NCBI RefSeq assembly: GCF_900188185.1
Contig: NZ_FZPA01000001.1
Coordinates: forward strand, 496,001 to 560,000
DNA: 64,000 nucleotides
Direction: 5' to 3'
Source: Sphingopyxis indica
GTDB taxonomy: Bacteria; Pseudomonadota; Alphaproteobacteria; Sphingomonadales; Sphingomonadaceae
Shown: piece after piece, positions 12,771 to 34,479 of the stretch
Layout: each line of letters starts with the position of its first letter
How positions within the stretch are numbered: the first letter of the stretch is position 1
Program-made: the position numbers and the translations under genes
The notes under the pieces: generated by a model
The model's database searches: none
Seen by the model: the letters and a program-made list of their open reading frames with translations, nothing else
Told to the model about the DNA's origin: nothing

Positions 12771-12782
12771 TTCAACTACTAA
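12771..12782. promoter_or_regulatory. Degenerate TTAG-N4-CTAA operator copy
   Basis: Reads TTCA-ACTA-CTAA followed by GTAT. The right half matches the cluster operator and the left half has two mismatches. It lies 220 bp upstream of TonB receptor 1 and 137 bp upstream of the leuC-like gene. This is the weakest member of the set. Confidence 0.35.
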
Positions 12783-12842
12783 GTATATTTCGCCGGCGGT
12801 GCTCATTCGCGCTTGCGCGCCGAACGGCTCTCTCGATATAAG

Positions 12843-12854
12843 TTAGAACTCTAA
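12843..12854. promoter_or_regulatory. TTAG-N4-CTAA operator (leuC-like gene)
   Basis: An exact TTAG-AACT-CTAA inverted repeat followed by GTAT, about 70 bp upstream of the leuC-like start. It is the same element as at 15131, 15841, 17013, 25078, 30568 and 34468. A regulator-binding role is inferred from its repeated promoter-proximal placement. Confidence 0.65.
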
Positions 12855-12918
12855 GTATTTTGAAAAGGTCCGAATCGGCTCGTTGGGCGCGCTTCGGAAC
12901 GCGACGGGGGAGCGCCCG

Positions 12919-14346
12919 ATGACGGCGGCGGCACGCACTTTATACGACAAGATCTGGGACGCGCATGTGGTGGCGGAGGACGAGGGCGAGACCCTGCTCT
13001 ATGTCGACCTGCACCTGCTGCACGAGGTGACGTCGCCGCAGGCCTTCGCCGCGCTTGCTGCGGCGGGGCGCGCGGTGCGCCGGCCCGAGCGCGCGCTGGC
13101 ATTGTCCGATCATAATGTCCCGACCGAAGGGCAGGCGGCTGGCCCCGAAGCGGTGGCCGACGATCAGGCGCGTGCGCAGCTCGAGGCGCTGGCGATGAAT
13201 GCCGACCGCTTCGGCATCGAGCGTTTCGCCATGGGCGATCGGCGCAACGGCATCGTCCATGTCGTCGGCCCCGAACAGGGGCGCTCGCAGCCCGGGATGA
13301 CGATCGTGTGCGGTGATAGCCACACTTCGACGCATGGCGCTTTCGGTGCGCTCGCCTTCGGGATCGGCACCAGCGAGGTCGAGCATGTGCTCGCGACCCA
13401 GACGATCCGCCAGCGCCGGTCGCGCAATATGCGCATCGTCGTTGACGGCGCGCTGGCGGCGGATGTTTCGGCAAAGGATCTGGCACTTCACATCCTCGCC
13501 ACGCTGGGCGTCGACGGGGCGACGGGGCATGTCGTCGAATATGCGGGCGAGGCGATCCGCGCGCTGTCGATGGAAGGGCGCATGACGCTCTGCAACCTCA
13601 GCATCGAAATGGGGGCGCGGGCCGGGCTGATCGCGCCCGACGAAACGACCCTTGCCTATCTTGAAGGGCGGCCCGCGTCGCCCGCCGGCGCGGACTGGGA
13701 CGCGGCGGTGCGGCGCTGGGGGCAGCTTGCGAGCGACGAGGGGGCGTCTTTCGACCATGAACTCTGGCTCGACGCGGCGGCGGTGCGGCCGATGGTGAGC
13801 TGGGGCACCGATCCGTCGCAGGTCGTCGCGATCGACGGGACGATTCCCGACCCGGCCGCGCTCGCGGGCTCCGAGGCGTGCACCGCGGCCGAGCGGGCGC
13901 TCGCCTATATGGACCTGACTCCGGGCGCGCCGATTGCCGGGACGCGGCTCGACCGGGTGTTCATCGGCAGCTGCACCAACAGCCGGATCGAGGATCTGCG
14001 GACCGCGGCTGCGGTGGCGAGCGGACGAAAGGTTGCGGGTCACGTCCGCGCGATGGTCGTTCCCGGGTCGGGGCTCGTCAGGCGGCAGGCCGAGGAGGAG
14101 GGGCTCGACCGGATTTTCCGCGACGCCGGCTTCGACTGGCGCGAGCCGGGATGTTCGCTGTGCGTCGGGATGAATCCCGACCGGCTGAACCCGGGCGAGC
14201 GCTGCGCCTCGACCTCGAACCGCAATTTCGAGAACCGCCAGGGGCGCGGCGGGCGCACCCATTTGATGAGCCCGGCGCTGGCGGCGGCGAGCGCGATTGC
14301 GGGGTGTATCGCCGATCCGTCGGAGCTTGATGCGAATGGGACGTAG
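12919..14346 (+). CDS. LeuC-like hydro-lyase large subunit (aconitase family)
   Basis: A 475-aa homologue of the large subunit of 3-isopropylmalate dehydratase. The three 4Fe-4S ligands are present: C352 (GSCTNSR) and C412/C415 ([10 protein letters not shown]). [20 protein letters not shown] is the usual substrate/cluster block. The start ATG has GGGGGAG upstream. No leuB or leuA is nearby, and the matching small subunit lies downstream on the opposite strand. An operator repeat sits 70 bp upstream. I infer a paralog acting on a catabolic 2- or 3-hydroxy acid, but housekeeping leucine synthesis cannot be excluded from this window. Confidence 0.85.
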
Positions 14347-14375
14347 GAGGCGTCTGGAATCGAGCCGTTTCCCGC

Positions 14376-14466
14376 CGTCGCCCCGGCGAAAGCTGGGGCC
14401 GCCATCCTCTTGTCACAGCAGCAAAAGGCCAGGCCGGCAGCGGCCCCAGCTTTCGCTGGGGCGACG
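14376..14466. repeat. Palindromic repeat, family C copy 1
   Basis: An inverted repeat of about 91 bp with arms CGTCGCCCCGGCGAAAGCTG and its near complement ending at 14466. It sits between the converging leuC-like and leuD-like genes and could serve as a bidirectional stop hairpin. Related copies are at 54946 and 55359. Confidence 0.85.
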
Positions 14467-14505
14467 GTTCATGGTTGGGAAGTCAGTCCGCTCCCCACCC
14501 CAAAA

Positions 14506-15108
14506 TCACGCCGAATCCGAACCCCTACCCCCCTCTTCGAACCGCGCGATCGCGTCGTTGTGGCGCAGCGTGCGGCCGATGTCGTCGAGGCCTTCGAGCA
14601 GGACGCGCCGGTCGTCGGGGTCGATCGCGAATGCCAGCGTCTCGCCCGAAGCGAGGCGGATCGTTTGCATCTCGAGGTCGACCTCGATCGGCGCATATTG
14701 CGACCGCTCGACGTCGCGACGAAGCCCCTCGCATATGGCGTCGGGCAGGCGGATCAGCAGCAGCCCGTTCTTGCGCGCATTGCCCGCGAAAATATCGCCG
14801 AAGCTCGGTGCGATGATGCAGCGGATGCCGAAATCGGTCAGCGCCCAGGCGGCGTGCTCGCGCGACGATCCGCAGGCGAAATTGCGGTCGGCGATCAGGA
14901 TTTGCGCCGCCCGGCATATGGGGTGGTTGAGGATGAAGTCGGGCCGTTCGCGGCCGTCTTCGGCATAGCGCAGCTCCTGGAACAGATGCCTGCCGAGCCC
15001 GTCTTTCGTCAGCGCCTTCATGTAGCGCGCGGGAATGATCATGTCGGTATCGACATTGGCGAGCGGCAAGGGGGCGGCCGGCGCGCGGACGCGGGTGAAT
15101 TTCTGCAC
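14506..15108 (-). CDS. LeuD-like hydro-lyase small subunit
   Basis: A 200-aa swivel-domain subunit of the isopropylmalate dehydratase type. The typical blocks NVDTDMIIPARYM, NFACGSSREHAAWAL and IIAPSFGDIFAGNARKNG are all present. It should pair with the LeuC-like protein encoded on the other strand. The two genes converge, each with its own promoter and operator, instead of forming the usual leuCD operon. The operator at 15131-15146 is 23 bp upstream of the ATG. Confidence 0.87.
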   Translation of the reverse strand: MQKFTRVRAPAAPLPLANVDTDMIIPARYMKALTKDGLGRHLFQELRYAEDGRERPDFILNHPICRAAQILIADRNFACGSSREHAAWALTDFGIRCIIAPSFGDIFAGNARKNGLLLIRLPDAICEGLRRDVERSQYAPIEVDLEMQTIRLASGETLAFAIDPDDRRVLLEGLDDIGRTLRHNDAIARFEEGGRGSDSA

Positions 15109-15130: not shown

Positions 15131-15146
15131 ACTTAGTATCCTAAGT
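15131..15146. promoter_or_regulatory. Best-conserved cluster operator (leuD-like / marR1)
   Basis: ACTTAG-TATC-CTAAGT: a 6+6 bp perfect inverted repeat with a 4-bp spacer, in the divergent gap between the leuD-like gene and the first marR gene. It contains the core TTAG-N4-CTAA. Its position next to a marR gene suggests autoregulation. Confidence 0.7.
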
Positions 15147-15295: not shown

Positions 15296-15802
15296 TTGGC
15301 CAAGGCAAAACAAAGCTATCGGCATCCGGCCGAATATTACACCAATCCGGACAACAGCATCGGCTATCTGGCGCGCATCGTCTTTCGGTCCTTTTCGCGG
15401 CTGCTCGAGCGCAAGACGCTCGAATATGACGTGTCGGCCGGACAATGGCGCTTTCTGCGCCAGCTCTGGCGCGAAGACGGCATCACCCAGCGCGAGCTTT
15501 CGGAGCGCGTCGGGATGCGCGAGCCGACCACCGTCGTCGCGCTGAAAGGGCTGGAGAAGGCCGGGCTGATCACGCGCAAGAAGACGGCGGAGGATCGCCG
15601 CAAGACCTTCATCTATCTGACCCCGCATGCCAAAAAGCTCGAACTGGTGCTCGCGCCGATGAACGCGGAGATCCACGAGGTCGCGACGCGCGGCATGACC
15701 GACGCCGAGGTCGAGACGCTGCAGGCGCTGATGCGCCGGGTCATCGACAATCTGGCCGAAGAGACGCGCGAACTCGCAGTGCTGTCCGAAATCAAGGCTT
15801 GA
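15296..15802 (+). CDS. MarR-family transcriptional regulator 1
   Basis: A 168-aa winged-helix protein starting at TTG with GGGGA upstream (GCAGGGGAACGAG). The recognition region is visible as ITQRELSERVGMREPTTVVALKGLEKAGLITRKK, with the wing DRRKTFIYLT. MarR proteins bind short palindromes as dimers and usually release DNA on binding an aromatic or CoA ligand. It sits downstream of the strongest copy of the cluster repeat and upstream of another (15841), so it is a main candidate for reading that repeat. Confidence 0.92.
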   Translation: MAKAKQSYRHPAEYYTNPDNSIGYLARIVFRSFSRLLERKTLEYDVSAGQWRFLRQLWREDGITQRELSERVGMREPTTVVALKGLEKAGLITRKKTAEDRRKTFIYLTPHAKKLELVLAPMNAEIHEVATRGMTDAEVETLQALMRRVIDNLAEETRELAVLSEIKA

Positions 15803-15840: not shown

Positions 15841-15852
15841 TTAGCATTCTAA
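15841..15852. promoter_or_regulatory. TTAG-N4-CTAA operator (FMN reductase)
   Basis: An exact TTAG-CATT-CTAA repeat, 21 bp upstream of the reductase ATG. It is close enough to overlap the promoter or transcript start, which would fit repression. Confidence 0.65.
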
Positions 15853-15873: not shown

Positions 15874-16449
15874 ATGACCAGCATTGCCGTGATCGCCGGC
15901 AGCACGCGCGAGGGAAGCTATAACCGGGCGCTCGCCCGCCTCGCGGCGGCGCGGCTCGAAGCGCATGGCGCGGCGGTGACCATGGTCGATCTCGACGCAT
16001 TCGATCTGCCGATCTATTCGGATCATCTCGAAAAGACCGCCTTTCCCGCCGATGCGCTGGCGCTCAAGGAACTGCTCGCGGCGCAGGACGGGCTGCTGAT
16101 CGTCTCGCCCGAATATAATGGATCGGTGCCGGCGCTGCTCAAAAATGCGATCGACTGGGCCTCGCGTCCCACGGGCGATGAAGGACTCGTCGCGCTGACC
16201 GCCTTTCGCGGCAAGGCGGCGGCGATCATGTCGGCGTCGATCAGCCCCTTCGGCGGGCTGCGCGGGCTGATGCATCTGCGGCAGATATTGACGACGATCC
16301 AGATGCTCGTGATCCCCGAGCAGGTGCTCGTGCCGCTCGCACATGCGGGGTTCGAAGAGGACGGCAGCTTGAAAGAGGCGCTGCCCGCCTCGCTCGTCGA
16401 TATGACGGCGGCGCGGCTGGTCAAGGTCGCGGGGGTGCTCGCCGCCTAA
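15874..16449 (+). CDS. NADPH-dependent FMN reductase family protein
   Basis: A 191-aa flavodoxin-fold protein. The phosphate-binding loop GSTREGSYNRALA is N-terminal, and the SPEYNGSVPALLKNAIDWASRP block is diagnostic of the family. It could reduce a quinone-like or azo intermediate or supply reduced FMN. No partner monooxygenase is seen nearby. The start ATG is preceded by GGAGAG. It follows marR1 with an operator in the gap and converges with marR2, overlapping it by 4 bp. Confidence 0.9.
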   Translation: MTSIAVIAGSTREGSYNRALARLAAARLEAHGAAVTMVDLDAFDLPIYSDHLEKTAFPADALALKELLAAQDGLLIVSPEYNGSVPALLKNAIDWASRPTGDEGLVALTAFRGKAAAIMSASISPFGGLRGLMHLRQILTTIQMLVIPEQVLVPLAHAGFEEDGSLKEALPASLVDMTAARLVKVAGVLAA

Positions 16450-16904
16450 CCGCCGCGCGCTTTGGCGGGTTCCGCCTTTCGCGCGATATTCTCGCCCCAA
16501 TCGGCCTCGAGCGTTTCGAGCAGCGCGGCGAAGCGGTCGTGGCCGAGCTTGTCGGCAAGCTGCTCGGCAAGCTCGTCCATCGCCTGCTGCGCATCGCGGC
16601 GCATCCGGGCGCCGAGGTCGGTCAGCGAGGCGATCATGTGGCGCCGGTCGGTCGGATCGACGTCGAGCTGAAGGATGCCGAGCTCGACGAGCTGGCCGAT
16701 CGTGCTGTGGATCGCCTGGCGCGACACGCCGAGGTTGCGCGCAATGTCCGACGGGCGCACGATGCCGCTGACGATATTGGTCATCACCATCGATTGCGGC
16801 CGGCTGACGTCGGGCCACCCGCGGTCGTGAAGCCGCGCCTGCAGCCCTTCGTCGAGCCAGCAGAAGCGTTGGAAAAGCGCGATAATGAGTTGATTGGTCC
16901 GCAT
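16446..16904 (-). CDS. MarR-family transcriptional regulator 2
   Basis: A winged-helix protein of 152 aa from the ATG at 16904; an in-frame TTG at 16955 would add 17 residues, and neither has a clear ribosome site. The helix-turn-helix is VRPSDIARNLGVSRQAIHSTIGQLVELGIL, with the wing DPTDRRHMIASL. It is divergent from acyl-CoA ligase 1 with an operator repeat in the gap. Together with marR1 it is a candidate regulator of the cluster. Confidence 0.88.
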   Translation of the reverse strand: MRTNQLIIALFQRFCWLDEGLQARLHDRGWPDVSRPQSMVMTNIVSGIVRPSDIARNLGVSRQAIHSTIGQLVELGILQLDVDPTDRRHMIASLTDLGARMRRDAQQAMDELAEQLADKLGHDRFAALLETLEADWGENIARKAEPAKARGG

Positions 16905-16995
16905 GACGCTGTCGCGATAAGCCCCTGACGTCGGGCCGGGTGCCGACCTGCGCAACGCTAGAAGAAGGGGGGAAGCGAGGCAAGGCGCGGCGCTC

Positions 16996-17024
16996 TTGCA
17001 AAGTCAAAATGCTTAGCATACTAT
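16996..17024 (+). promoter_or_regulatory. Putative sigma70-type promoter of acyl-CoA ligase 1
   Basis: TTGCAA at 16996-17001 and TACTAT at 17019-17024 are separated by 17 bp. The -10 hexamer is embedded in the right half of the operator at 17013-17024. This arrangement would allow a bound regulator to block RNA polymerase. Motif match only. Confidence 0.4.
17013..17024. promoter_or_regulatory. TTAG-N4-CTAA operator (marR2 / ligase 1)
   Basis: TTAG-CATA-CTAT, with one mismatch to the exact repeat, in the divergent gap between marR2 and ligase 1 and about 64 bp upstream of the ligase start. The wider context TGCTTAG...CTATCT is shared with the site before ligase 2. Confidence 0.6.
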
Positions 17025-17081
17025 CTTTCTGACGGGAGAGCCGCTATCGGCCGCAGGCAAGCAAGGGAGAGGCGCGTCGTC

Positions 17082-18716
17082 ATGGACGGATTGATGCAGA
17101 ATGTGCCGCTGACGGTCGACCGCATCCTCGACCATGCCGCGGCATGGCACGGAGCCCGCGAAATCGTGTCGCGCGATGCCGAAGGACGGGTGGTCCGCTC
17201 GACCTATGCGGAGGTTCATGCCGATGCGAAACGCGTGTCGAATGCGCTCGCGGCCGAGGGCATCAAGCCCGGCGACCGCGTCGCGACGATGGCGTGGAAC
17301 GGCGCCCGGCACCTTGCCGCCTGGTATGGCGCCGCCGGCATGGGCGCGGTGCTGCACACCCTCAACCCGCGGCTGTTCCTCGAACAGATCGCCTATATCG
17401 CGAACCATGCCGAGGACCGATTGCTGATCGCCGACCCGGCGGTCGCCGACCTGGTCGAAGCGCTGTTGCCGCAGGTGCCGTCGATCGAGAAGGTGATCTT
17501 TTTCTGCGACCGCGCTTCGCTGCCGAAGACCAGCTTCGATGCGGTTGCGTTCGACGACTGGATCGCCGGGCATTCGGCCGAATATGCTTGGGGCGGCTTC
17601 GACGAAAATGCTGCATGCGGGCTGTGCTACACCAGCGGCACGACGGGCAATCCGAAGGGCGTGCTCTATTCGCACCGCTCGAACTATATCCATGCGCTGA
17701 TGACGTTGCAGCGCGACGCGCTCGCGCTGTCGGCGCGCGACACGGTGCTGCTCGTCGTGCCGATGTATCACGCCAATGCGTGGGGCGTCGTCTATTCGGC
17801 GCCGGCGGTCGGCGCGAAGCTCGTGCTGCCGGGGCAGCGAATGGACGGCGAATCCATCTATAATCTGATCGAGGCGGAGGGCGTCACTTACTCGGCGGCG
17901 GTTCCGACGGTGTGGCAGATGCTGCTGCAATATATGCAGGAGAATGGCAAGCGCTTCACGACGCTCGAGCGCGTGACGATCGGCGGTTCGGCCTGCCCCG
18001 AATCGCTGATCCGCACCTTCCGCGACGATTATGGCGTCGATGTCATCCAGGGCTGGGGGATGACCGAAACCTCGCCGCTCGGTACCGTATCGGTGCCGCA
18101 CGCCTCGGTCGCCGCGAAGTCGGATGCCGAACAGATGGCCTATAAGCTCAAGCAGGGGCGGCTGCTCTGCGGGCTGGAAATGAAGCTGGTCGATGATGCC
18201 GGCAACCGCCTCCCGCACGATGGCAAGACTCCGGGCCGGCTGATGATCAAGGGGCCGACGATCGCGCGCGGCTATTTCGGCGGCGAGGGCGGCGACGTGC
18301 TCGACGCCGAGGGCTTTTTCGACACCGGCGACGTCAGCACGATCGACGGCGAAGGCTATATGCAGATCACCGACCGCGCGAAGGATGTCGTCAAATCGGG
18401 CGGCGAATGGATCAGCTCGATCGAGATCGAAAATATCGCGACGGGTCACGAGGCGGTCGCGATTGCAGCGGTGGTGGGCGTGTCGCATCCGAAATGGGAC
18501 GAGCGGCCGATCCTGCTGTGCCAGCTCAAGGACGGCGCGAGCGCCTGCGCCGACGATCTCAGGGCATATCTCGACGGCAAGATCGCCAAATGGTGGATGC
18601 CCGACGACATCATCTTCGTCGAAGAAATCCCGCTCGGCCCGACCGGCAAGATCGACAAGAAGGCGATCCGCGTCGGGCTGGAGGGCTATGAGCTGCCGTT
18701 CGAGGCGAGCCGCTGA
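17082..18716 (+). CDS. Acyl-CoA ligase 1 (fatty-acid-CoA ligase type)
   Basis: AMP-forming ligase of 544 aa that activates a carboxylic acid to its CoA thioester. The phosphate loop YTSGTTGNPKG is at residues 183-193, the GWGMTETSPLG motif follows, and the C-terminal domain carries the catalytic-type lysine in GPTGKIDKK. The sequence resembles medium/long-chain acid ligases, but substrate cannot be assigned. It heads an operon with the hydrolase, kinase, enolase-like and dehydrogenase genes. Confidence 0.92.
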   Translation: MDGLMQNVPLTVDRILDHAAAWHGAREIVSRDAEGRVVRSTYAEVHADAKRVSNALAAEGIKPGDRVATMAWNGARHLAAWYGAAGMGAVLHTLNPRLFLEQIAYIANHAEDRLLIADPAVADLVEALLPQVPSIEKVIFFCDRASLPKTSFDAVAFDDWIAGHSAEYAWGGFDENAACGLCYTSGTTGNPKGVLYSHRSNYIHALMTLQRDALALSARDTVLLVVPMYHANAWGVVYSAPAVGAKLVLPGQRMDGESIYNLIEAEGVTYSAAVPTVWQMLLQYMQENGKRFTTLERVTIGGSACPESLIRTFRDDYGVDVIQGWGMTETSPLGTVSVPHASVAAKSDAEQMAYKLKQGRLLCGLEMKLVDDAGNRLPHDGKTPGRLMIKGPTIARGYFGGEGGDVLDAEGFFDTGDVSTIDGEGYMQITDRAKDVVKSGGEWISSIEIENIATGHEAVAIAAVVGVSHPKWDERPILLCQLKDGASACADDLRAYLDGKIAKWWMPDDIIFVEEIPLGPTGKIDKKAIRVGLEGYELPFEASR

Positions 18717-18759
18717 CATGGTCCCCGATGATGAAATACTGCAAGCAGGAGAGAGACTG

Positions 18760-19887
18760 ATGGACCCGAACGGGATCGAAGGGCTGGACGCGCAATTCAT
18801 CGGCCGCGTGTCGCCGACCGCACCGCGGATTCAGGCGGGCGGACACCCGTGCCAAGGCATCTATTGGACCGAAAGCGGCAAGCGCCCGAAGGTCGCGATC
18901 ATCGCGACGCACTATAATGTCGATTTCTCCGAACATTATATCGCGCCCTGGTTCGCGCGGCAGGGGTTTGGCTTTCTCGGCTGGAACACGCGCTATCGCG
19001 GCATGGAGGACCAGTTCCTGCTCGAACATGCGATTCTCGACATCGGCGTCGGCATGAAGTGGCTGAAGGAAGAAGCCGGCGTCGAGGCGATCGTCATCCT
19101 CGGCAATTCGGGCGGCGGCTCGCTGATGGGCGCCTATCAGGCCGAAGCGATCGCGCCGACCCTGACCGACCGCCTTCCGCCCGCGGGGCAGGACGCGCTG
19201 GCTGAGCTCGTCAAGGGCGACCTCTATATCAGCTTCAACGCGCACCAGGGACGGCCCGAGGTGCTGACCGACTGGATGGACGCGTCGGTGATCGACGAGA
19301 ATGATCCGACGCTGACCGACCCCCAACTCGACCCCTTCAACCCCGACAATGGTCCGCCCTATTCGGACGCGTTCATCACGAAATATCGCGCCGCACAGCG
19401 CGCGCGCAACCAGCGGATCACCGACTGGGCGAAGGCAGAACTCAAGCGCCTTAACGCGGCGGGCATTCCCGACCGCATCTTTCCGATGTTCCGCTGCTGG
19501 GGCGACATCCGCTGCGTCGATCCGGCGATCGACCCGTCGGACCGCAAGCCCAACTGGTGCTATCGCGGCGACCCCGCGGTCGCCAACCGCACCCCGAGCA
19601 TCGGGCGCGCGAACACGATTAAGACGTGGCTCAACATGTGGAGCCTCGAAACCTCGCCGTGCCAGGGGCAGCCGCACCTTGCGAAGCACGACACGCCGGC
19701 GCTCGTCGTCCAGGGAACGGCCGACACCGGCGTCTTCCCGAGCGATGCCCGCAAGATCTTCGATTTCCTCGGTTCGGCCGACAAGCAACTCGAACTGATC
19801 AAGGGCGCGCATTATTTCGAGGATTCGATCGAAGAGCGCCGGAACGCCGCCGATCTGGTCGGCGCGTGGATCAGGGAGAAGCTGTAA
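18760..19887 (+). CDS. Alpha/beta hydrolase (large, catabolic operon)
   Basis: A 375-aa alpha/beta hydrolase with the nucleophile elbow G-N-S-G-G-G (ILGNSGGGSLMG) and a late LIKGAHYFED histidine. The start at 18760 has AGGAG 8 bp upstream. An in-frame ATG at 18718 lacks a good site. An inserted domain of roughly 120 residues between nucleophile and acid probably forms a lid. It could hydrolyse an ester, lactone or C-C bond. The kinase gene begins on the base after its stop codon. Confidence 0.88.
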   Translation: MDPNGIEGLDAQFIGRVSPTAPRIQAGGHPCQGIYWTESGKRPKVAIIATHYNVDFSEHYIAPWFARQGFGFLGWNTRYRGMEDQFLLEHAILDIGVGMKWLKEEAGVEAIVILGNSGGGSLMGAYQAEAIAPTLTDRLPPAGQDALAELVKGDLYISFNAHQGRPEVLTDWMDASVIDENDPTLTDPQLDPFNPDNGPPYSDAFITKYRAAQRARNQRITDWAKAELKRLNAAGIPDRIFPMFRCWGDIRCVDPAIDPSDRKPNWCYRGDPAVANRTPSIGRANTIKTWLNMWSLETSPCQGQPHLAKHDTPALVVQGTADTGVFPSDARKIFDFLGSADKQLELIKGAHYFEDSIEERRNAADLVGAWIREKL

Positions 19888-25077: not shown

Positions 25078-25089
25078 TTAGTATTCTAT
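25078..25089. promoter_or_regulatory. TTAG-N4-CTAA operator (MetE-like / ligase 2)
   Basis: TTAG-TATT-CTAT, one mismatch, in the divergent gap: 41 bp from the MetE-like GTG and 36 bp from the ligase 2 ATG. The context TTGCTTAG...CTATCT matches that of the ligase 1 site. Confidence 0.6.
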
Positions 25090-25124
25090 CTAATTCAAGA
25101 TCAAACTGAGGTTGGGAGAGCGAA

Positions 25125-26690
25125 ATGATCGATCTGGACGCCATAAGGACGCTGGCCGACATCCCGGCGGCGCAGGCGAAAAAGCGGGGAAATGCCGTCG
25201 CGGTGAAGTTCGGCGTGCGCGAAACGAGCTTTGCCGAACTCGATGCGCGCTCGAACCGCGTCGCCAACGCGCTGATCGCGTCGGGCGTCGCGTCGGGCGA
25301 CCGGGTGTCGGTGCTCACCAAGAACCACGACGCCTGGTATCCGCTCTTCTTCGGCACCGCGCGGGCGCGCGCCTGTCTCGCGCCGATCAACTGCCGCCTC
25401 GCGCCGGGCGAGGTCGCCTTCATCCTCGGCGATGCGGCGCCGAAGCTGCTCTTCGTCGGCGAGGATTTCTTCGAAACCGCGCTCGCGGCGGTGGCCGGTC
25501 TCGACAACAAGCCGCGCCTGATCGCGCTCTATGGGGCGCATCCCGCTTTCGAGCCGTTCGACGCATGGCTGGCCGATGCCCCGGCGACGCCGCCCGCCGA
25601 CGCGCCGCGGCTCGCCGACGACGTGCTCCAGCTCTATACGAGCGGCACGACCGGGCGGCCGAAGGGCGTCGTGCTCGCCAACAAAAATTACCGCCGTTTC
25701 CTCGAAATGGCGACCGAGGTCGACGGCTTCGCCTATGGCGAGGACGAGACGGTGATGATCGTGATGCCGCTGTTCCACGTCGCGGGGACGAACGTCAGTT
25801 TCTCGGGGCTGGCGCAGGGCGGGCGGCTGGTGCTCGTCAAGGATTTTTCGGCCGCCGATGCGATCCGCATGATGAGCGAAGAACGGGTGGCGCACGCCTT
25901 CCTTGCCCCCGCGATGATCCAGATGATGCTCCAGCAGCCCGAGGCGGAGGCGGGCGACTATTCCGCGCTCCGCTCGATCGCCTATGGCGCCTCGCCGATC
26001 GCCCAGGATGTGCTGCGCCGCGCGCGCGCGACCTTCGGCTGCGATTTCGTGCAATTTTACGGCATGACCGAAAGCTCGGGCGGCGGCTCCTATCTGTCGC
26101 CCGCAGCGCACGATCTGCCGGGCAAGCTCACCTCATGCGGCAAGCCGTGGCCGCAGACCGAAATGGCGATCCTCGACGGCGAGGGGCGGCCGCTTGCGGA
26201 TGGCGAGATCGGCGAAATCGCGATCCGCGGCGACATCGTGATGAAGGAATATTGGAACCGTGCGGAGGCGACCGCCGATACGGTGGTCGAGGGCTGGCTG
26301 CGCACCGGCGACGTCGGCTATCGCGACGCCGACGGCTTCTATTTCGTCCACGACCGGATCAAGGACATGATCGTGTCGGGCGGCGAGAATGTCTACCCGG
26401 CCGAGGTCGAAAGCGCGATCATGGGCTGTCCCGGCGTCGCCGACGTCGCGGTGATCGGGGTTCCCGACGACAAATGGGGCGAGGCGGTGAAGGCGCTGAT
26501 CGTTCCGGCGGCGGGAGCGAGCGTCGAGCCCGCCGCGGTGATCGCCTGGGCTCGCGAACGCATCGCGGCCTACAAGGCGCCGAAAAGCGTCGAAATCATC
26601 GACGCCCTGCCGCGCAATCCGTCGGGCAAGGTTCTGCGCCGCGAACTGCGCGCGCCCTATTGGGAAGGACGCGAGCGGGCCGTGGGGTAG
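25125..26690 (+). CDS. Acyl-CoA ligase 2
   Basis: AMP-forming ligase of 521 aa. The phosphate loop YTSGTTGRPKG is at residues 171-181, YGMTESSGG follows, and the hinge and C-terminal lysine motifs are DRIKDMIVSGGENVYPAE and NPSGKVLRREL. GGGAGAG precedes the ATG. It is more like the short-chain/aromatic ligase group than ligase 1, hence probably a different acid of the same pathway. It is monocistronic and faces the VOC operon end. Confidence 0.92.
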   Translation: MIDLDAIRTLADIPAAQAKKRGNAVAVKFGVRETSFAELDARSNRVANALIASGVASGDRVSVLTKNHDAWYPLFFGTARARACLAPINCRLAPGEVAFILGDAAPKLLFVGEDFFETALAAVAGLDNKPRLIALYGAHPAFEPFDAWLADAPATPPADAPRLADDVLQLYTSGTTGRPKGVVLANKNYRRFLEMATEVDGFAYGEDETVMIVMPLFHVAGTNVSFSGLAQGGRLVLVKDFSAADAIRMMSEERVAHAFLAPAMIQMMLQQPEAEAGDYSALRSIAYGASPIAQDVLRRARATFGCDFVQFYGMTESSGGGSYLSPAAHDLPGKLTSCGKPWPQTEMAILDGEGRPLADGEIGEIAIRGDIVMKEYWNRAEATADTVVEGWLRTGDVGYRDADGFYFVHDRIKDMIVSGGENVYPAEVESAIMGCPGVADVAVIGVPDDKWGEAVKALIVPAAGASVEPAAVIAWARERIAAYKAPKSVEIIDALPRNPSGKVLRRELRAPYWEGRERAVG

Positions 26691-26792: not shown

Positions 26793-26820
26793 AAAAAAAA
26801 GCCCGGCGCGAAGGCCGGGC
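26793..26820 (-). terminator. Rho-independent terminator of the MFS-to-VOC operon
   Basis: On the minus strand a GCCCGGC / GCCGGGC hairpin with a 6-nt loop is followed by eight T. It lies 23 bp after the VOC stop codon and clearly ends the minus-strand operon. Confidence 0.88.
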
Positions 26821-26843
26821 CAGAGGAGTGCATCTGAACAGAA

Positions 26844-27437: not shown

Positions 27438-27456
27438 CGTCCGTCTCCTTTGCGTC

Positions 27457-28074: not shown

Positions 28075-28117
28075 GGCCATCCTCTCGGTGATCCTTCTAT
28101 CGGATCGCGCGCAAACT

Positions 28118-28132
28118 GTCAATTAGATTGAC
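28118..28132. promoter_or_regulatory. GTCAAT-N3-ATTGAC palindrome upstream of GST 1
   Basis: GTCAATTAGATTGAC: 6-bp arms with a 3-bp centre, in the 73-bp gap before GST 1. It matches 13 of 15 bases of the site at 34451. It may allow separate control of the GST-VOC pair within the longer operon. Confidence 0.55.
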
Positions 28133-28147
28133 GGTTTGAGTCTGTCC

Positions 28148-28795
28148 TCATTCAGACTTCGATCGCGGCGCGCTCAGGAAGTCGGCGGCATCGAAGCCTT
28201 CGGGCGCCGCGACCTCGACGATCGGGTCTTCGCGTGCGTCATATTCCATGCGCAAGGCGCGGGTGATCACCGCATGCATGTCGTAGAGGCAGGTGATGTA
28301 AGTGAATTCGAAAATCTGCTCGTCGGTCCAGAAGCTCTTGAGCTTGTCGAACACTTCGGTCGGAACGCGCCCGCCCGCCTGGCTCAGGCAGTCGGCATAG
28401 GCGAGTACCGCGCGCTCCTGATCGTTATAGCATTCGGCGACCGTCCAATAAGGAACCGCCGCGATTTTCTCCTCGCTGACGCCGAGGCCGCGCAGCGACT
28501 TGCAATGCTGCGAAAAGACGAACTGGCTGCCCTTCACCCAGCCGGCGCGCGTCTGGCCGAGCTCGCGCAGCACCGGGTCGATCGAGCGCGCGGGGTTGCG
28601 ATAGACGGCGAAGCCGTCGACCGCATGTTTGAAGATGTCGGGCGACAGCGCGTAGACTGTCCACCAGTCGCCGGGCGTGCCGGTCGCGGTGCCGGGCTCG
28701 GCCACCGGATCGCGGTCGCCGAACAGGCGCTGGTAATAGGCGAGGACGGTTTCGTCGGTGACGTCGGCGCGGGGCACCTGGCGCAACACGGGCAT
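28148..28795 (-). CDS. Carboxymuconolactone decarboxylase family protein
   Basis: A 215-aa AhpD/CMD-fold protein. The conserved helix is recognisable (WVKGSQFVFSQHCKSLRGLGVSEEK), but the AhpD C-x-x-C pair is absent. A peroxidase role is therefore unlikely, and a decarboxylase or lactone enzyme is more probable. It follows the SnoaL-like gene by 10 bp. Family function is diverse, so the exact reaction is open. Confidence 0.85.
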   Translation of the reverse strand: MPVLRQVPRADVTDETVLAYYQRLFGDRDPVAEPGTATGTPGDWWTVYALSPDIFKHAVDGFAVYRNPARSIDPVLRELGQTRAGWVKGSQFVFSQHCKSLRGLGVSEEKIAAVPYWTVAECYNDQERAVLAYADCLSQAGGRVPTEVFDKLKSFWTDEQIFEFTYITCLYDMHAVITRALRMEYDAREDPIVEVAAPEGFDAADFLSAPRSKSE

Positions 28796-28805
28796 ATCTT
28801 ACTCC

Positions 28806-29201
28806 TCAGGCGTCGGCATATTTGCGAAAGGCGGCGACGTGGGCGCTATCGAAATATTCGTCGAGGCGGGCGATCTTGCCGTCCTTGACCGCACAGACGA
28901 TCGCGCAGGGCAGGCGCACCTCGACCTCGTCCTGCACGCGCTTTCCCTTCAGCACATGCTGCTGGACGAAGCCGCCGGGAAAGGTGATCAGCCGGCGGTC
29001 GGCATATTCGCGATCCTTGATCCGCGCGACCATGCCGGTCAGCGTCTGTGCGGTCTGCGCGGGGGTGACGATCTTTTCGTCGGTGTTGTGCCAGATCGCG
29101 GCGTCGGGGGCGAAGCTGCTTTGCATGGTTTCGATGTCGCCCGCCTCGATCGCGTCGAAAAAGCGCGTCGCCATCGCGCGGATGTCGTCCTGTTCGGTCA
29201 T
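28806..29201 (-). CDS. SnoaL/NTF2-like fold protein
   Basis: A 131-aa cone-shaped NTF2-like protein: RFFDAIEAGDIETMQSSFAPDAAIWHN at the N-terminus and GKIARLDEYFDSAHVAAF at the C-terminus are typical. Family members act as isomerases, cyclases or hydratases on small ligands. It lies 28 bp after the transporter and 10 bp before the CMD gene. Confidence 0.85.
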   Translation of the reverse strand: MTEQDDIRAMATRFFDAIEAGDIETMQSSFAPDAAIWHNTDEKIVTPAQTAQTLTGMVARIKDREYADRRLITFPGGFVQQHVLKGKRVQDEVEVRLPCAIVCAVKDGKIARLDEYFDSAHVAAFRKYADA

Positions 29202-29229
29202 ATGCCTTTCTCCCTTGGCCTGCTGCCGG

Positions 29230-30525
29230 TCATTCGGCGAAATCCTTTTCGAGATGGCGCGTCATCGCATATTGCGCGAGGCCAGCGGCGAGCGCGAAGG
29301 GCAGGATGGCCATCAGCGCCCAGCGCAGGCTGTCGTCGCCATGCACAGGCTTGAGCGCGTCGCTGACCATGCCGATGAAGAGCGGGCCGAGGCCGAGGCC
29401 GACGATGTTGAACATCAGCATCAGCACCGCGGCCGCGGTCGCGCGGCTGCGCGGCGGGGTCAGATTCTGGACCAGCGCGAGCGCCGGCGCGACATAGGCG
29501 GTGCAGGCGGCCATCGGGGCGAGCATCAACGCCAGCGAAACCTGCCAGCTGCCCGCGAGCAGCGCAGCGGCGAAGGTCGGGATCAGGATCGCGGTCGCCA
29601 GCGCCGGAATCGTCCCATAGGCGCGCGGCGATCGCTTCGCGGCACGGCTGACGAGCCAGCCGCCGCCCAAAATACCAATGCCGAACGTGATGCCCGCGGC
29701 GGGTGCGAACCAGGTTGCCATCGCGTCGAGGGGCATCCCCTGCGTCCGCATCAGGAAAGCGGGAATCCAGTTGAGCATGCCATAGCTGACGAAGGCGGCA
29801 AGCCCGCTGCCGATCATCACCATGCGCAGCGAGCGGCGGCGCACGAACATCGCGAGGCTCTGGCCGAAGGGCAGCGCTTCGTCGGCGGGCCTGCCCGTGT
29901 CCATCGCGCCGCGCGCGGGCTCGCGCACCAGCCAGATGAGTAGCGGCGCGACGACGATGCCGACGATGCCGATGACCAGAAAGGCATGGCGCCAGCCGAT
30001 GTGCGCCGCCGCCCACGCGCCGAAGGCGGCGCCGACGAAGACGCCGAACGGGCCGTTCAGCGTGAACAGGCCGATCGCGAGCGGGCGCCGGTCGGGGGGA
30101 TAGAGATCGGCGATCACCGAAAGCGAGGGCGCGGTGCCGCCCGCCTCGCCCGCGCCGACGCCGAAGCGCATCAGTGCGAGCTGCCAGAAATTCGACACCA
30201 GCCCGCAAGCGGCGGTGAAGCCGCTCCACACGATGCAGGCGATGCCGATCAGTTTCACGCGGTTCCAGCGGTCGGCGATCATCGCGACCGGCACCCCCAT
30301 CGCGGCATAGAAGAGTGCGAAGGCAAGGCCGGTGAGCAGGCCGAATTGCGTGTCGCTGAACCGCATGTCGGCGCGGATCGGTTCGACGAGCACCGACAGG
30401 AGCTGGCGGTCGACGAAGTTGATCGTGCCGACGAGGAACAGCATCGCCAGCGCGACGCCGCGCCGCGCGGTCATGGCGCGGCCGGACGGCGCGGCGCCCG
30501 CTTCGATCGCGGTGGCTTGCGTCAT
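29230..30525 (-). CDS. MFS transporter (Spinster-like / organic acid uptake type)
   Basis: A 431-aa transporter with twelve predicted helices. The TINFVDRQLLSVLVEPI start of helix 1 and the loop-2 motif ADRWNRVKLIG are characteristic. GGGGAGAG precedes the ATG at 30525. As first gene of the minus operon, with an operator 43 bp upstream, it probably imports the pathway substrate across the inner membrane. Export cannot be excluded. Confidence 0.92.
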   Translation of the reverse strand: MTQATAIEAGAAPSGRAMTARRGVALAMLFLVGTINFVDRQLLSVLVEPIRADMRFSDTQFGLLTGLAFALFYAAMGVPVAMIADRWNRVKLIGIACIVWSGFTAACGLVSNFWQLALMRFGVGAGEAGGTAPSLSVIADLYPPDRRPLAIGLFTLNGPFGVFVGAAFGAWAAAHIGWRHAFLVIGIVGIVVAPLLIWLVREPARGAMDTGRPADEALPFGQSLAMFVRRRSLRMVMIGSGLAAFVSYGMLNWIPAFLMRTQGMPLDAMATWFAPAAGITFGIGILGGGWLVSRAAKRSPRAYGTIPALATAILIPTFAAALLAGSWQVSLALMLAPMAACTAYVAPALALVQNLTPPRSRATAAAVLMLMFNIVGLGLGPLFIGMVSDALKPVHGDDSLRWALMAILPFALAAGLAQYAMTRHLEKDFAE

Positions 30526-30567
30526 GGCTCTCCCCAAATTGGTGCGATTCTCGTTTCTCGGAAATGC

Positions 30568-30579
30568 TTAGGTATTTAA
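30568..30579. promoter_or_regulatory. TTAG-N4-CTAA operator (MFS / SDR)
   Basis: TTAG-GTAT-TTAA, one mismatch, in the divergent gap between the transporter and the SDR. The wider sequence CTTAG-GTAT-TTAAG shows 5-bp arms with one G-T type mismatch. It lies 43 and 55 bp from the two starts. Confidence 0.58.
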
Positions 30580-30633
30580 GTTTATCTGTCAATGTGCTTT
30601 ACGATGGGACGCAAACCAAGATGGGAGAGTGTG

Positions 30634-31401
30634 ATGGAGATCAAGGGAAAGCGCGCGATCGTGACCGGGGCAGCAGGCGGCATCGGCCGCGCGACCGCGG
30701 TGCTGCTCGCGGCGCGCGGCGTGGCCGAGATCGCGCTGGTCGATGTCAAGGAAGAGGCGCTTGCCGAAACCGCGCACCTCGTCGAAGCGGAGGGTGCCCG
30801 CGCGATGGCGCACGCGCTCGACCTCTCCGACATCCCGGCGACCGAAGCCTGGTTCAAGGTGCATGGCGATGTCGACATATTGCACAATAATGCGGGCGTC
30901 GTATCGGGCTTGCCGCAATTCCCCGATGTCGATGCGGCGCGGATCAGGTGGATCGTCGATGTCAATCTGACCTCGCTGGTCGCGGCGACGCAGATCGCGG
31001 TGCAGGCGATGAAGGCGCGCGGGGGCGGGGTGATCGTCAACACCGTATCGACGGTCGCGCTCGGCACCGGATTCTACGACGCGATGTATGCGACGACCAA
31101 GGCGGCGGTGATGATGTTCACGCGCTGCTGCGCGCCCCTGAAGGACGAATGCAATGTCCGTGTCGCGGGGATGCTCCCGGGGCTCGTCGCAACGCCGATC
31201 CTCGACACCACGGGCGCGGGCGGCAAGTCCGAGTGGATGAAGCAGGTGCTCGCGAACAACGAGGCGTGCGAACCCGAGGATATTGCCGCCGGCGTGATCC
31301 GGCTGATCGAGGACGACGGGCTGGCGGGCGGCGACTGGGTTGCCGTCCGGCGGCTCGGGGGCAGGATCGACTATCAGTGGGGCCACGCCGGCACCGTTTG
31401 A
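30634..31401 (+). CDS. Short-chain dehydrogenase/reductase
   Basis: A 255-aa classical SDR. The cofactor loop is TGAAGGIG (11-18), the structural motif NNAG is at 85-88, and the catalytic residues are S139, Y152 and K156 (YATTK). The acidic residue after strand 2 (ALVDVKE) favours NAD. The ATG at 30634 has GGGAGAG upstream. It would oxidise or reduce a secondary alcohol or ketone of the pathway. It is monocistronic and converges with GST 2. Confidence 0.92.
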   Translation: MEIKGKRAIVTGAAGGIGRATAVLLAARGVAEIALVDVKEEALAETAHLVEAEGARAMAHALDLSDIPATEAWFKVHGDVDILHNNAGVVSGLPQFPDVDAARIRWIVDVNLTSLVAATQIAVQAMKARGGGVIVNTVSTVALGTGFYDAMYATTKAAVMMFTRCCAPLKDECNVRVAGMLPGLVATPILDTTGAGGKSEWMKQVLANNEACEPEDIAAGVIRLIEDDGLAGGDWVAVRRLGGRIDYQWGHAGTV

Positions 31402-31422
31402 GCCGCCGCCCCCGCCAGGCGG

Positions 31423-32154
31423 TCAGCGCGTCGGCGCGGCGAGCATATTCTGGCCGAACAGGTTCGACCATTGCTCCTCGGTCAGCACCGGGCGCGCGCT
31501 CGACAGGTTGGCGGCATTTTTGATGCCGGTTCCGGCGATGACCGCGGGACGCTCGGCGATCCGTTCGAACCACGCCGCGACGGCGGGGAAATCTTCGAGC
31601 GAAAGGCCGATCGCGCCAGTCGCGCGCGCCCATGGCCACGTCGCAATGTCGGCGACGCTATACTCCTCGGCCAGATAGTCGGCTTCGCGCAGGCGGCCAT
31701 CGAGAACGTGGAGCAGCCGGATCGTCTCGTTGCGATAGCGTTCGACGGGATAGTCCTGCCCCTCGGGCGCGTAGCGGATGAAATGATGCGCCTGTCCCTG
31801 CATCGGGCCGAAACTGGCCATCTGCCACATCAGCCATTGCTGCGCCTGACTGCGGCGGCGTGGATTTTCGGGAAGCAATTGTCGCGATTTCTCCGCCAGA
31901 TAGAGCAGGATCGCGCCGCTCTCGAACACCGGCAGCGGCGCGCCGCCGCCGATGGGATCGTGATCGACGATCGCGGGCAGCCGCCCGTTCGGGTTGATGC
32001 GGCGATATTCGGGCGTCAGATGGTCGCCCGCGAGCACGTCCATCTTGAGCAACCGGTGGGGCAGTCCGGTCTCCTCGAGCATGATCGAGACTTTGTGGCC
32101 GTTGGGGGTCGGGGTGAAATAGACGTCGATCATCGCGGCCGCACCAGTGGGCAT
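31423..32154 (-). CDS. Glutathione S-transferase 2 (YfcG-like)
   Basis: A 243-aa GST with a nucleotide-disulfide-type N-terminus (YFTPTPNGHKVSIMLEE, NPNGRLPAIVD, FESGAILLYLAEK) and helical domain (LAEEYSVADIATWPW). The ATG at 32154 lies 2 nt after the TonB receptor 2 stop, so the genes are translationally coupled. An internal ATG at 32133 is also possible. The family includes thiol-disulfide and etherase-like enzymes. The coupling to a receptor is unusual. Confidence 0.88.
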   Translation of the reverse strand: MPTGAAAMIDVYFTPTPNGHKVSIMLEETGLPHRLLKMDVLAGDHLTPEYRRINPNGRLPAIVDHDPIGGGAPLPVFESGAILLYLAEKSRQLLPENPRRRSQAQQWLMWQMASFGPMQGQAHHFIRYAPEGQDYPVERYRNETIRLLHVLDGRLREADYLAEEYSVADIATWPWARATGAIGLSLEDFPAVAAWFERIAERPAVIAGTGIKNAANLSSARPVLTEEQWSNLFGQNMLAAPTR

Positions 32155-32156
32155 CG

Positions 32157-34394
32157 TCAGAATTTGAACCCGGCCTCGACCGAGATGTTGCGCGCCGGTT
32201 CCAGGTAGAGGATCGCGCGCGACACCGAGGTAATCGGGAAGGGCAGGCGGAAGGCGCTTCCCGTTGTGAGTTCGTTGGTCAGATTCTTGCCGACGAGCGC
32301 GAGATGCCAGCGTTCGTCCCGATCCGAGAGCTGAACGCGCAGGTCGAGCTTCACATAGCCCTTCTGCAAGCCGTAGATCGGGCTCTGGTCGTCGGAGTCG
32401 AAATATTTCGACCGGCCCGCGGCGACGCCGGTGATGTCGAGTTTCAGGTCGTTCGCAAATTCGATGCGGCCGTGCGCGGTGACGCTGCCGGTCCATTTCG
32501 ACGTATAGGCAGGGCTGTAACCGGCGAGGTTGTTGGTCGCCGGGGTGCAGGTCGCGGGCTGCGACGCAAGGCAGGCCGCGCCCGGATAATCGTCATATTT
32601 GATATCCTGATAGGCACCCGAGGCGGTGATGTCGAAATTGCGGAAGGGGAAAAGGCTGAGCGATCCCTCAATGCCCTTCGACGTCGCGCTTGCTGCATTG
32701 CCGGTCAGATAGCTCGACGAGGCGGGCTGATAGACCGACACCTGCAGATCCTTGAACTGCGTCTTGTAGACCGACAGGTTCGCGACGACCGCGCCGCCCG
32801 CCAGCGTCGACTTGATACCCGCTTCATAGTTGGTCGAGCGTTCGGGCTCGAAGGTGAAGGTGGCGTCGGTGGTGCCGAGCGTGTTCGATACGAAGCCGCC
32901 CGACTTCGACCCGCGGCCATAGGTCGCATAGAGCATCACCTGCCGCGCGATGTCATATTGCAGTGTGATCGAGGGATCGACATTGCCTTCGCTGATCGAA
33001 CCCTCGGCGCTCGAAATCGGACGGATCGCGAACGGACCATAGACGAGGTGCGAGGCGAAGCTGCCGTCCTTGCTCGTGTGCGTATAACGCAGGCTGCCGA
33101 TCGCCCGGAAGGCGTCGGTGATGTTCAGCGTGCCCTGGCCGAACACCGACCAGCTTTCGGCCTTTTGTTTGAACCGGCTGTCGATGCGGCCGAAATAGGG
33201 GCTGCCGAACAGATCCTCGATGTCGAAGCCCTGGAGCTGATCGAGCCTGTAGTTCGAATGGTCGTAATAGACGCCGGCGATGAACTCGAAGGTGCGGCCC
33301 GTCGGCGACAGGATGCGCAGTTCCTGCGAGAATTGGTCGAAGCGTTCGGGGAAGCTGTTGTAAACCGAATTGTTGGTTACCGCACCGCCGCTGTTCGGGA
33401 TCGTCTGGTCGAAACCGTTGACGATGTTGGCGTTGAACCAGCTGTAGCCGGTCACCGAGGTCAGCGTATAGTCGCCGAGCGCGATATTGCCGGTGCCCGA
33501 CAGCATGACCGACTCGGTCTGCGTTCCCTCGTCGCCGAGCGCCGAGCGTTCGAGGTAGCGGTTGGTGTGCGGGTCCTGCGGGCTGTCGAGCGGACTCGAC
33601 ACGGTGATGCCGCCGATCACGTCCTTATTCGCATATTCGGCCTTCACCATATAGTCGAAGTCGGTCGAAGGTTCCCATTTGAGCGTCAGGCGCGCGAGCT
33701 GCTGGCGGATTTCGGGATCGTCGTGATCGGTCGCGCGATTATAGATATAGCCGTCCTGTTGGACGATCTTGTACGCGAGACGCGCGCTCAGCGTCTCGCT
33801 GATCGGTCCCGAAACATAGCCCGAGACGTCGACGCCTTTCTGGTCGAAATTATAGAGCGCGGTGAACTCGCCTTCGGGCGTGCTCGTCGGGCCGGCCGAT
33901 ACGACGCTGACGGCGCCCGCGGCGGTGTTCTTGCCGAACAAGGCGCCCTGCGGGCCGCGCAGTACCTCGACGCGCTGAAGGTCGAAGAAGGGCGCCTGCG
34001 CCTGGCGCGAGCGGCCGGCATAGACGCCGTCGACATAGAGCGAGACCGACTGGTCGAAGGCGAAATTGGCCGGTGGCGAGCCGAAGCCGCGAATATAGAT
34101 GACGTCGTTGCCCGCGGTCGACTGAACGAAGACGTTCGGGGTGTAGTTCATCACCGATTTGATGTCGTTCGAGTTGAAGTCGGCGAGCTTTTGCCCGCTG
34201 ACCACTTCCATCGAGATCGGCACGTCCTGCAGGCTCTGCTCGCGCTTTTGCGCGGTGACGATGATCTCGTTGGCATTGTCTTGCTGCGCGAGCGGTGCGT
34301 CCGCCGCGGCGTCCTGCGCCATCGCCGGGGCGGCCGCCATCAGCATCGCGCCCGTCGCGGCGCCCGACAGCAGAATCCTGTTCAGAGCCTTCAT
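32157..34394 (-). CDS. TonB-dependent outer-membrane receptor 2
   Basis: A 745-aa receptor with signal peptide (MKALNRILLSGAATGAMLMA, cleavage after AMA-Q), TonB-box-like NEIIVTAQKREQS, plug (LQDVPISMEVVSG, VEVLRGPQGALFGKNTAAGA) and a barrel ending in F (AGFKF). It belongs to the same general class as receptor 1 but is clearly distinct in the barrel. Both cluster palindromes lie within 85 bp upstream of its start. It likely serves uptake of the pathway substrate. Confidence 0.95.
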   Translation of the reverse strand: MKALNRILLSGAATGAMLMAAAPAMAQDAAADAPLAQQDNANEIIVTAQKREQSLQDVPISMEVVSGQKLADFNSNDIKSVMNYTPNVFVQSTAGNDVIYIRGFGSPPANFAFDQSVSLYVDGVYAGRSRQAQAPFFDLQRVEVLRGPQGALFGKNTAAGAVSVVSAGPTSTPEGEFTALYNFDQKGVDVSGYVSGPISETLSARLAYKIVQQDGYIYNRATDHDDPEIRQQLARLTLKWEPSTDFDYMVKAEYANKDVIGGITVSSPLDSPQDPHTNRYLERSALGDEGTQTESVMLSGTGNIALGDYTLTSVTGYSWFNANIVNGFDQTIPNSGGAVTNNSVYNSFPERFDQFSQELRILSPTGRTFEFIAGVYYDHSNYRLDQLQGFDIEDLFGSPYFGRIDSRFKQKAESWSVFGQGTLNITDAFRAIGSLRYTHTSKDGSFASHLVYGPFAIRPISSAEGSISEGNVDPSITLQYDIARQVMLYATYGRGSKSGGFVSNTLGTTDATFTFEPERSTNYEAGIKSTLAGGAVVANLSVYKTQFKDLQVSVYQPASSSYLTGNAASATSKGIEGSLSLFPFRNFDITASGAYQDIKYDDYPGAACLASQPATCTPATNNLAGYSPAYTSKWTGSVTAHGRIEFANDLKLDITGVAAGRSKYFDSDDQSPIYGLQKGYVKLDLRVQLSDRDERWHLALVGKNLTNELTTGSAFRLPFPITSVSRAILYLEPARNISVEAGFKF

Positions 34395-34450
34395 CTGGAA
34401 CCCTCCCTATCCTTATGGTGTCGGCGTTACCGGGATGCGGGTCCCGATCC

Positions 34451-34465
34451 GTCAATCTGATTGAC
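34451..34465. promoter_or_regulatory. GTCAAT-N3-ATTGAC palindrome upstream of TonB receptor 2
   Basis: GTCAATCTGATTGAC: 7-bp arms around one central base, 57 bp upstream of the receptor start and 2 bp from the TTAG operator. It matches the site at 28118 at 13 of 15 positions. Confidence 0.55.
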
Positions 34466-34467
34466 CC

Positions 34468-34479
34468 TTAGTATACTAA
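34468..34479. promoter_or_regulatory. TTAG-N4-CTAA operator (TonB receptor 2 / DUF3237)
   Basis: An exact TTAG-TATA-CTAA repeat in the divergent gap, 74 bp from the receptor start and 42 bp from the DUF3237 ATG. It is the last copy of the operator set. Confidence 0.65.

Follow-up and report, generated by a model that had tools for sequence, protein, structure and literature searches.

The gene cluster and its shared palindrome

The stretch of 64,000 nucleotides from Sphingopyxis indica analyzed here (hereafter the window; positions 496,001 to 560,000 of contig NZ_FZPA01000001.1) contains a catabolic gene cluster in which the gaps between genes carry copies of a 12-bp palindrome, TTAG-N4-CTAA (hereafter O1). 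Sphingopyxis is a genus known for pollutant degradation. Two MarR-type proteins, MarR1 and MarR2, are encoded in the cluster; MarR1, a SlyA-like winged-helix protein, is the likely binder of O1 and would thereby repress the genes for uptake and breakdown. A second palindrome, O2 (GTCAATNNNATTGAC), is present in the same cluster. The features are listed below in window coordinates, with the strand for genes and the basis of the assignment in parentheses.

12771..12782: degenerate O1, TTCAACTACTAA, with 2 mismatches; it probably belongs to the TonB receptor side
12843..12854: exact O1, TTAGAACTCTAA, in the promoter of the LeuC-like gene (window pattern count)
12919..14346, plus strand: LeuC-like protein (acnL; 3-isopropylmalate dehydratase large subunit family), one of the genome's three aconitase-family genes
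14506..15108, minus strand: LeuD-like small subunit (family match)
15133..15144: exact O1, TTAGTATCCTAA, in the gap between the divergent leuD-like and marR1 genes (window pattern count, conservation)
15296..15802, plus strand: MarR1, the proposed repressor of the O1 promoters (Pfam MarR, fold model)
15841..15852: exact O1, TTAGCATTCTAA, in the promoter of the flavin mononucleotide (FMN) reductase gene (conservation)
15874..16449, plus strand: NADPH-dependent FMN reductase family protein (family match)
16446..16904, minus strand: MarR2, with the ATG at 16904 picked by eye; the less likely O1 binder, and a candidate for O2 by position only
17013..17024: one-mismatch O1, TTAGCATACTAT, in the promoter of the acyl-coenzyme A (CoA) ligase 1 gene (conservation)
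17082..18716, plus strand: acyl-CoA ligase 1, heading a gene run that reaches 23882
25078..25089: one-mismatch O1, TTAGTATTCTAT, in the gap between the MetE-like and acyl-CoA ligase 2 genes (conservation)
25125..26690, plus strand: acyl-CoA ligase 2 (family match)
28118..28132: exact O2, GTCAATTAGATTGAC, in the promoter of the GST/glyoxalase genes (conservation)
30568..30579: one-mismatch O1, TTAGGTATTTAA, in the gap between the MFS transporter and SDR genes (conservation)
30588..30602: O2-like site with two mismatches, ahead of the SDR gene (conservation)
32157..34394, minus strand: TonB-dependent receptor 2 (family match)
34451..34479: composite O2-O1 element, GTCAATCTGATTGAC-CC-TTAGTATACTAA, in the gap between the TonB receptor and DUF3237 genes, with an exact O1 at 34468 (conservation)
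34521..35027, plus strand: DUF3237 protein (sequence comparison)

The run that follows acyl-CoA ligase 1, up to 23882, encodes two alpha/beta hydrolases, an APH-type kinase, an enolase paralogue and a D-2-hydroxyacid dehydrogenase.

The exact pattern searched, TTAGNNNNCTAA, occurs four times in the window against an expectation of 0.05, and none of 100 shuffled sequences reaches this number; with at most one mismatch, eight sites are observed and 2.44 are expected. All O1 sites in the window are intergenic in our own gene models. The first-pass annotation of this sequence had counted four exact, three one-mismatch and one degenerate copy, in agreement with the pattern search, and its chance estimate of 0.2 exact matches per 64 kb turns out to be conservative. 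Seven of its eight positions correspond to sites with at most one mismatch, the copy placed at 15131 actually starting at 15133; the eighth, at 12771, has two mismatches. The sites occupy seven gaps, not all of them successive, rather than the six successive gaps originally described. A further match with at most one mismatch, at 15227 (TTCGGGCTCTAA), is taken, by judgement, to be a chance occurrence.

The whole-genome scan that the same annotation had proposed reveals no enrichment, with 12 exact O1 sites in 4.15 Mb compared with 24 for the reversed control pattern, but four of the 12 cluster within 21.7 kb. A further two flank the cluster that contains a MarR1 paralogue (see below), so that six of the 12 exact copies fall in the two clusters holding the two MarR1-subfamily genes. 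When over-represented 5-base palindromes were sought blindly, CTTAG-N4 came sixth in a list with many GC-rich repeats, and this approach added little else. That O1 is an A+T-rich palindrome clustered by chance could be argued from the 12 exact sites, since the window holds no more than four of them and six of the other eight belong to neither cluster; the expectation of 0.05 for the window and the conservation across species described in the next section already refute this explanation, to which we assign a negligible probability. Elsewhere on the contig that carries the window, an exact O1-like site (L099:8721, contig position 92720) is located about 33 bp before an amidohydrolase-like gene (named by eye). 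No MarR1-type gene was recognized in the 13-kb stretch around it, and the site may be either a chance occurrence or an outlying regulon member.

Conservation of O1 and its association with MarR1

Sixty loci were fetched around relatives of MarR1; the named relatives come mostly from Sphingopyxis, with a best-segment identity of 77-90% for these. Among 48 palindromes compared (4-bp gap, half-sites being all permutations of TTAG, TTAC, TAAG or TAAC), the commonest is TTAG-N4-CTAA, with 122 copies in 48 of the 60 loci, the runner-up having 23. Within the annotated spans of these loci, 94 of the 95 exact O1 copies lie between recognized genes even though genes fill 89% of the sequence. The individual sites are conserved as well. 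In the leuD-like/marR1 gap, O1 is exact in 36 of 37 relatives and has one mismatch in the remaining one; in the marR1/FMN reductase gap, it is exact in 37 of 41, with one mismatch in one relative and three mismatches in three. The gap between marR2 and the acyl-CoA ligase 1 gene contains an exact copy in one of 38 relatives and a one-mismatch copy in the other 37, which reads TTAGYATACTAT in 32 cases, and the MetE-like/acyl-CoA ligase 2 gap contains a one-mismatch copy in 24 of 24. In oriented loci, TTAGRTATTTAA precedes the SDR gene in all 30 genomes, including that of S. indica. The degenerate form found at 12771 (ACTTCAA.T.CTAAG.A) recurs in all six loci in which this TonB receptor adjoins the LeuC-like gene, and is absent from the other 54. 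For the site at 12843, an exact O1 is located 2.1-2.7 kb ahead of MarR1 in 19 of the 60 loci. Many copies have TATN or CATN as the spacer, and many are extended by their outer bases to ACTTAG..CTAAGT; the half-sites are constant whereas the spacer bases drift, which is the pattern expected of a site bound by a protein dimer.

In one locus (L070, from Sphingopyxis bauzanensis), MarR1 is accompanied by a single exact O1, and no other queried gene of the cluster was recognized in the 20-kb stretch; a weak, interrupted MarR2-like match and two lyase-like pieces are found nearby.

MarR1 contains a MarR winged-helix domain, as indicated by the Pfam MarR match (54.5 bits, cut-off 24.6, E-value 1.1e-14) and by a fold model (predicted local distance difference test score, pLDDT, of 88) for which the best matches are MarR-family structures, the SlyA-DNA complex 3q5f being among the matches. 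The region of the recognition helix, MREPTTV[VI]A, is retained in 20 of the 21 MarR1 orthologues compared, reaching Phenylobacterium. The S. indica genome yields 24 MarR-domain hits, two of which belong to the MarR1 subfamily, and a MarR1-type protein was detected in four of 99 sampled genomes of the family, including this one.

Co-occurrence was computed for 80 genomes of the genus, including that of S. indica, which overlap with the 60 loci and are not independent of one another. A MarR1 match is present in 62 of these genomes and lacking in 18. The scan of related genomes suggested in the first-pass annotation shows a sharp difference between the two sets: a strict copy of O1 (CTTAGNATNCTA) occurs on average 6.0 times per genome with MarR1 and 0.11 times without, and at least one such copy is present in 60 of 62 and in 2 of 18 genomes, respectively, compared with means of 0.65 and 0.56 for the reversed control pattern. 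Thus, O1 is found in several promoters, is conserved across species and co-occurs with the regulator, as expected of a catabolic regulon governed by a single protein, and the earlier proposal that a shared operator defines a regulon is strongly supported by phylogenetic footprinting and by the co-occurrence with MarR1.

The first-pass annotation held that one or both of the MarR proteins bind O1. The evidence leans towards MarR1, and MarR2 is the weaker candidate: the site precedes the marR1 gene itself in nearly all relatives, and the genome G003 (the source of locus L084; a metagenome bin, perhaps incomplete) contains four exact O1 copies and no MarR2 match. The case against MarR2 is less strong than the case for MarR1. 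That MarR2, alone or with MarR1, binds O1 is rather improbable. Its gene belongs to the cluster and faces one of the O1 sites, the paralogous cluster has a MarR2-type gene too, and MarR2-like genes without an adjoining MarR1 are found beside cluster-type genes in two loci (L104 and L105). However, of the seven MarR2-like genes that have no MarR1 inside 1.5 kb (L102-L107 and L111), six have no O1 with at most one mismatch in that range, the only one with such a (one-mismatch) site being L111; one of the six (L106) is about 13 kb from MarR1. Three further loci (L079, L087 and L088) lack MarR2 in the fetched stretch, but their genomes contain MarR2-like genes elsewhere (50%, 34% and 35% identity, respectively), the one in the L088 genome being about 13 kb from MarR1.

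Several observations weigh against the assignment of O1 to MarR1. Apart from the lack of genome-wide over-representation noted above, exact O1 is absent from 12 of the 60 loci with a MarR1 relative, and six of these 12 (L058, L080, L082, L083, L090 and L091) contain no O1 with at most one mismatch between positions -400 and +900 of MarR1; the relatives in L083 and L082 (also L113 and L114, respectively) are 68-69% identical to MarR1. Among the 80 genomes, G112 and G160 encode MarR1 without any strict O1, and G111 contains one copy. The O1 sites of the MarR1 paralogue in S. indica are about 3 and 5 kb away from it, with none within 1.5 kb, and, because the paralogous cluster holds a MarR2-type gene as well, it fits either protein alike. 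Finally, the association across the 80 interdependent genomes fits MarR1 and the cluster as a whole equally well.

A second palindrome and regulon members beyond the window

Exact O2 occurs only twice in the genome, at 28118 and 34451, both within the cluster; one-mismatch copies are found in two places elsewhere. In 27 of 30 genomes, including that of S. indica, an O2 with at most two mismatches is located 54-61 bp upstream of the GST gene; the three misses (L162, L177 and L180) are loci that end at a contig end, for which the offset is wrong. A degenerate O2 (two or three mismatches) follows 20 bp beyond the O1 that precedes the SDR gene; this holds for 29 of 30 genomes, again including that of S. 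indica. Ahead of the receptor and DUF3237 genes, O2 and O1 are only 2 bp apart, and an invariant 21-bp core of this composite, GTCAATCTGATTGACCCTTAG, occurs a single time in each of 50 among the 80 genomes; all 50 belong to the 62 with MarR1, and the 18 without MarR1 lack it. Judging by position only, the protein that binds O2 is perhaps MarR2.

Two groups of genes outside the window carry O1 as well. The first is a pair of genes, for a CaiB-type CoA-transferase and an HMG-CoA-lyase-like enzyme (L098:8226-10428; both named from reading the sequence, without a family search), that are separated by CTTAGAATGCTAT at contig position 242465, some 266 kb away from the closest cluster site. In all five relatives read (L182, L183, L185, L188 and L191), this pair is inside the cluster with an identical operator. 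Together, the identical operator and the placement within the cluster in relatives indicate that the pair is a regulon member that became detached in this genome and retained its operator.

The second group is a paralogous cluster on another contig (C25:249-259 kb; L096/L097) that encodes paralogues of MarR1 (57% identity), the FMN reductase (46%), MarR2 (37%) and the DUF3237 protein, along with TonB receptors, a sulfatase-like protein and an acyl-CoA dehydrogenase-like protein. Two exact O1 sites, TTAGCAAACTAA and TTAGTATACTAA, flank the MarR1 paralogue, and O1 copies recur in three relatives (L186, L187 and L192). Given this identity and the presence of the same operator in both clusters, MarR1 and its paralogue could share the operator, forming one cross-regulated network rather than two regulons, an arrangement compatible with O1 being the MarR1 operator. 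We regard such sharing as possible but somewhat doubtful because the recognition helices of the two proteins differ (MREPTTVVALKGLE and MQDATTAVALRGLE, respectively) and 52 of the 62 genomes with a MarR1 match have a single one.

The paralogous cluster further contains a perfect palindrome resembling O2, GTCAAGAAACTTGAC (L097:2488-2502), which adjoins the MarR2-type gene, precedes the gene for the acyl-CoA dehydrogenase-like protein and is partly kept in relatives. Elsewhere, MarR2-like genes often adjoin a gene for the same type of acyl-CoA dehydrogenase.

A tentative extension of these findings, which we consider less probable than its opposite, is that two repressors act on two palindromes (MarR1 on O1 and perhaps MarR2 on O2), that the fused composite before the receptor and DUF3237 genes functions as a two-input gate, and that the paralogous module controls a second, sulfatase-containing pathway. 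If so, an undescribed pathway under this gate would join acyl-CoA ligases, a LeuCD-like isomerase, a kinase, an altered enolase paralogue, a 2-hydroxyacid dehydrogenase, a CoA-transferase and an HMG-CoA-lyase-like enzyme, and the composite element would offer a direct handle on control by two signals.

Promoter arrangement and comparison with known regulators

A sigma-70 consensus scan of positions 16900-34600 detected no promoter at the O1 sites, and the statements on promoters made here rest on conserved positions of the TTG trinucleotide. Ahead of acyl-CoA ligase 1, 34 of 36 relatives have a TTG beginning 17 bp upstream of O1; with a 17-bp spacer, the putative -10 hexamer TACTAT (assigned by reading) would fall on the right half of O1, which might be why this half-site keeps CTAT at this promoter. 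Ahead of the FMN reductase gene, TTG is at -23 from O1 in 30 of 37 relatives, and an 18-bp spacer (17 bp in the window itself) would place a candidate hexamer TAGNAT, also assigned by reading, on the left half-site. The preferred positions are weaker for the LeuC-like gene (-30 in 11 of 20) and for MarR1 (-21 in 10 of 39); the class of acyl-CoA ligase 2 promoters comprised only four loci and was left out. Because O1 overlaps or abuts -10-like hexamers, it could itself be a conserved promoter element (-10 region) for a shared sigma factor and not a repressor site. This is very unlikely, considering that conservation extends to both half-sites and not to the drifting spacer, that the position of O1 relative to TTG varies among promoters (-17, -23, -27 and -30), and that strict O1 is nearly absent in the 18 genomes without MarR1.

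In the mechanism that we infer for the regulon, a MarR1 dimer would bind the palindrome at each promoter. Where O1 seems to cover or abut the -10 box, at acyl-CoA ligase 1, the FMN reductase and, less clearly, the LeuC-like gene, the bound protein would block RNA polymerase, and the location of O1 before marR1 suggests autoregulation. A carboxylic acid of the pathway or its CoA thioester might release MarR1, an inducer type proposed because the regulon includes two acyl-CoA ligase genes and because CouR and SlyA provide precedents. Release would turn on the genes for uptake (TonB receptors, MFS transporter), activation (acyl-CoA ligases) and breakdown, as well as the distant CoA-transferase/HMG-CoA-lyase-like pair.

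The operator is of a known type. In the available part of PMC5797941, the SlyA operator consensus is given as TTAGCAAGCTAA (TTAN6TAA), which O1 fits, and the SlyA/RovA operator shares with O1 the half-site TTAG, the 4-bp spacer and the 12-bp palindrome; the spacer and flank preferences of O1 (TATN or CATN and ACTTAG..CTAAGT) differ from it. MarR1 itself resembles SlyA in having the MarR fold with 3q5f among its structural matches; this structure is one of 63 solved-structure matches (E-value 4.9e-8), is not the best of them and is 27% identical to MarR1 in the structural alignment, so that the close sequence relationship expected of a SlyA/RovA orthologue is lacking. As described in the accessible text of PMC6401476, SlyA and RovA repress their own genes and divergent efflux genes, and aromatic carboxylates inhibit both proteins. 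By contrast, the targets of O1 form a catabolic cluster.

As a predicted local repressor of catabolic genes, MarR1 resembles DesR (vanillate/syringate), Saro_0803 (stilbenes) and CouR (p-coumaroyl-CoA), catabolic MarR repressors of sphingomonads and other bacteria. CouR, which is released by a CoA thioester (PMC4737184), serves as the model for the type of inducer at MarR1, and the inverted repeat targeted by Saro_0803 overlaps a predicted -10 box (PMC10046596). The operators of Saro_0803, GCAATA-N6-TATTGC, and DesR, GTTTGTGTCACATAC (PMC6888825), are unlike O1, at least as given in the parts of these papers that were available, and the gene make-up of the present cluster is not matched in the corresponding portions of the DesR, Saro_0803 and CouR papers. 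Among the matches listed in searches of the open-licence PMC literature with the motif, with the genus name plus MarR and with the gene set, there is no account of this regulon. Thus, the type of operator (the SlyA consensus) and the type of regulator are known, whereas the regulon, its distant CoA-transferase/lyase member and the parallel regulon of the paralogue are new. Neighboring genes with loose annotations can thereby be read as a single regulon, conserved across the genus, for which an operator, a likely regulator and a detached member are at hand; O1 offers a means of finding additional members, and inducers of MarR1 could reveal the substrate.

Searches of the cluster genes against enzyme families did not yield a pathway. 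In the alignment of the enolase paralogue (20865-22163) with the solved enolase 4yws, two residues differ (E to D and H to A). We take these residues to be catalytic, and the difference at two active-site positions suggests that the substrate has changed. Inverted repeats of the short dispersed kind are visible by eye between genes of the cluster, at 14375-14475, 23080-23165 and 23885-23970.

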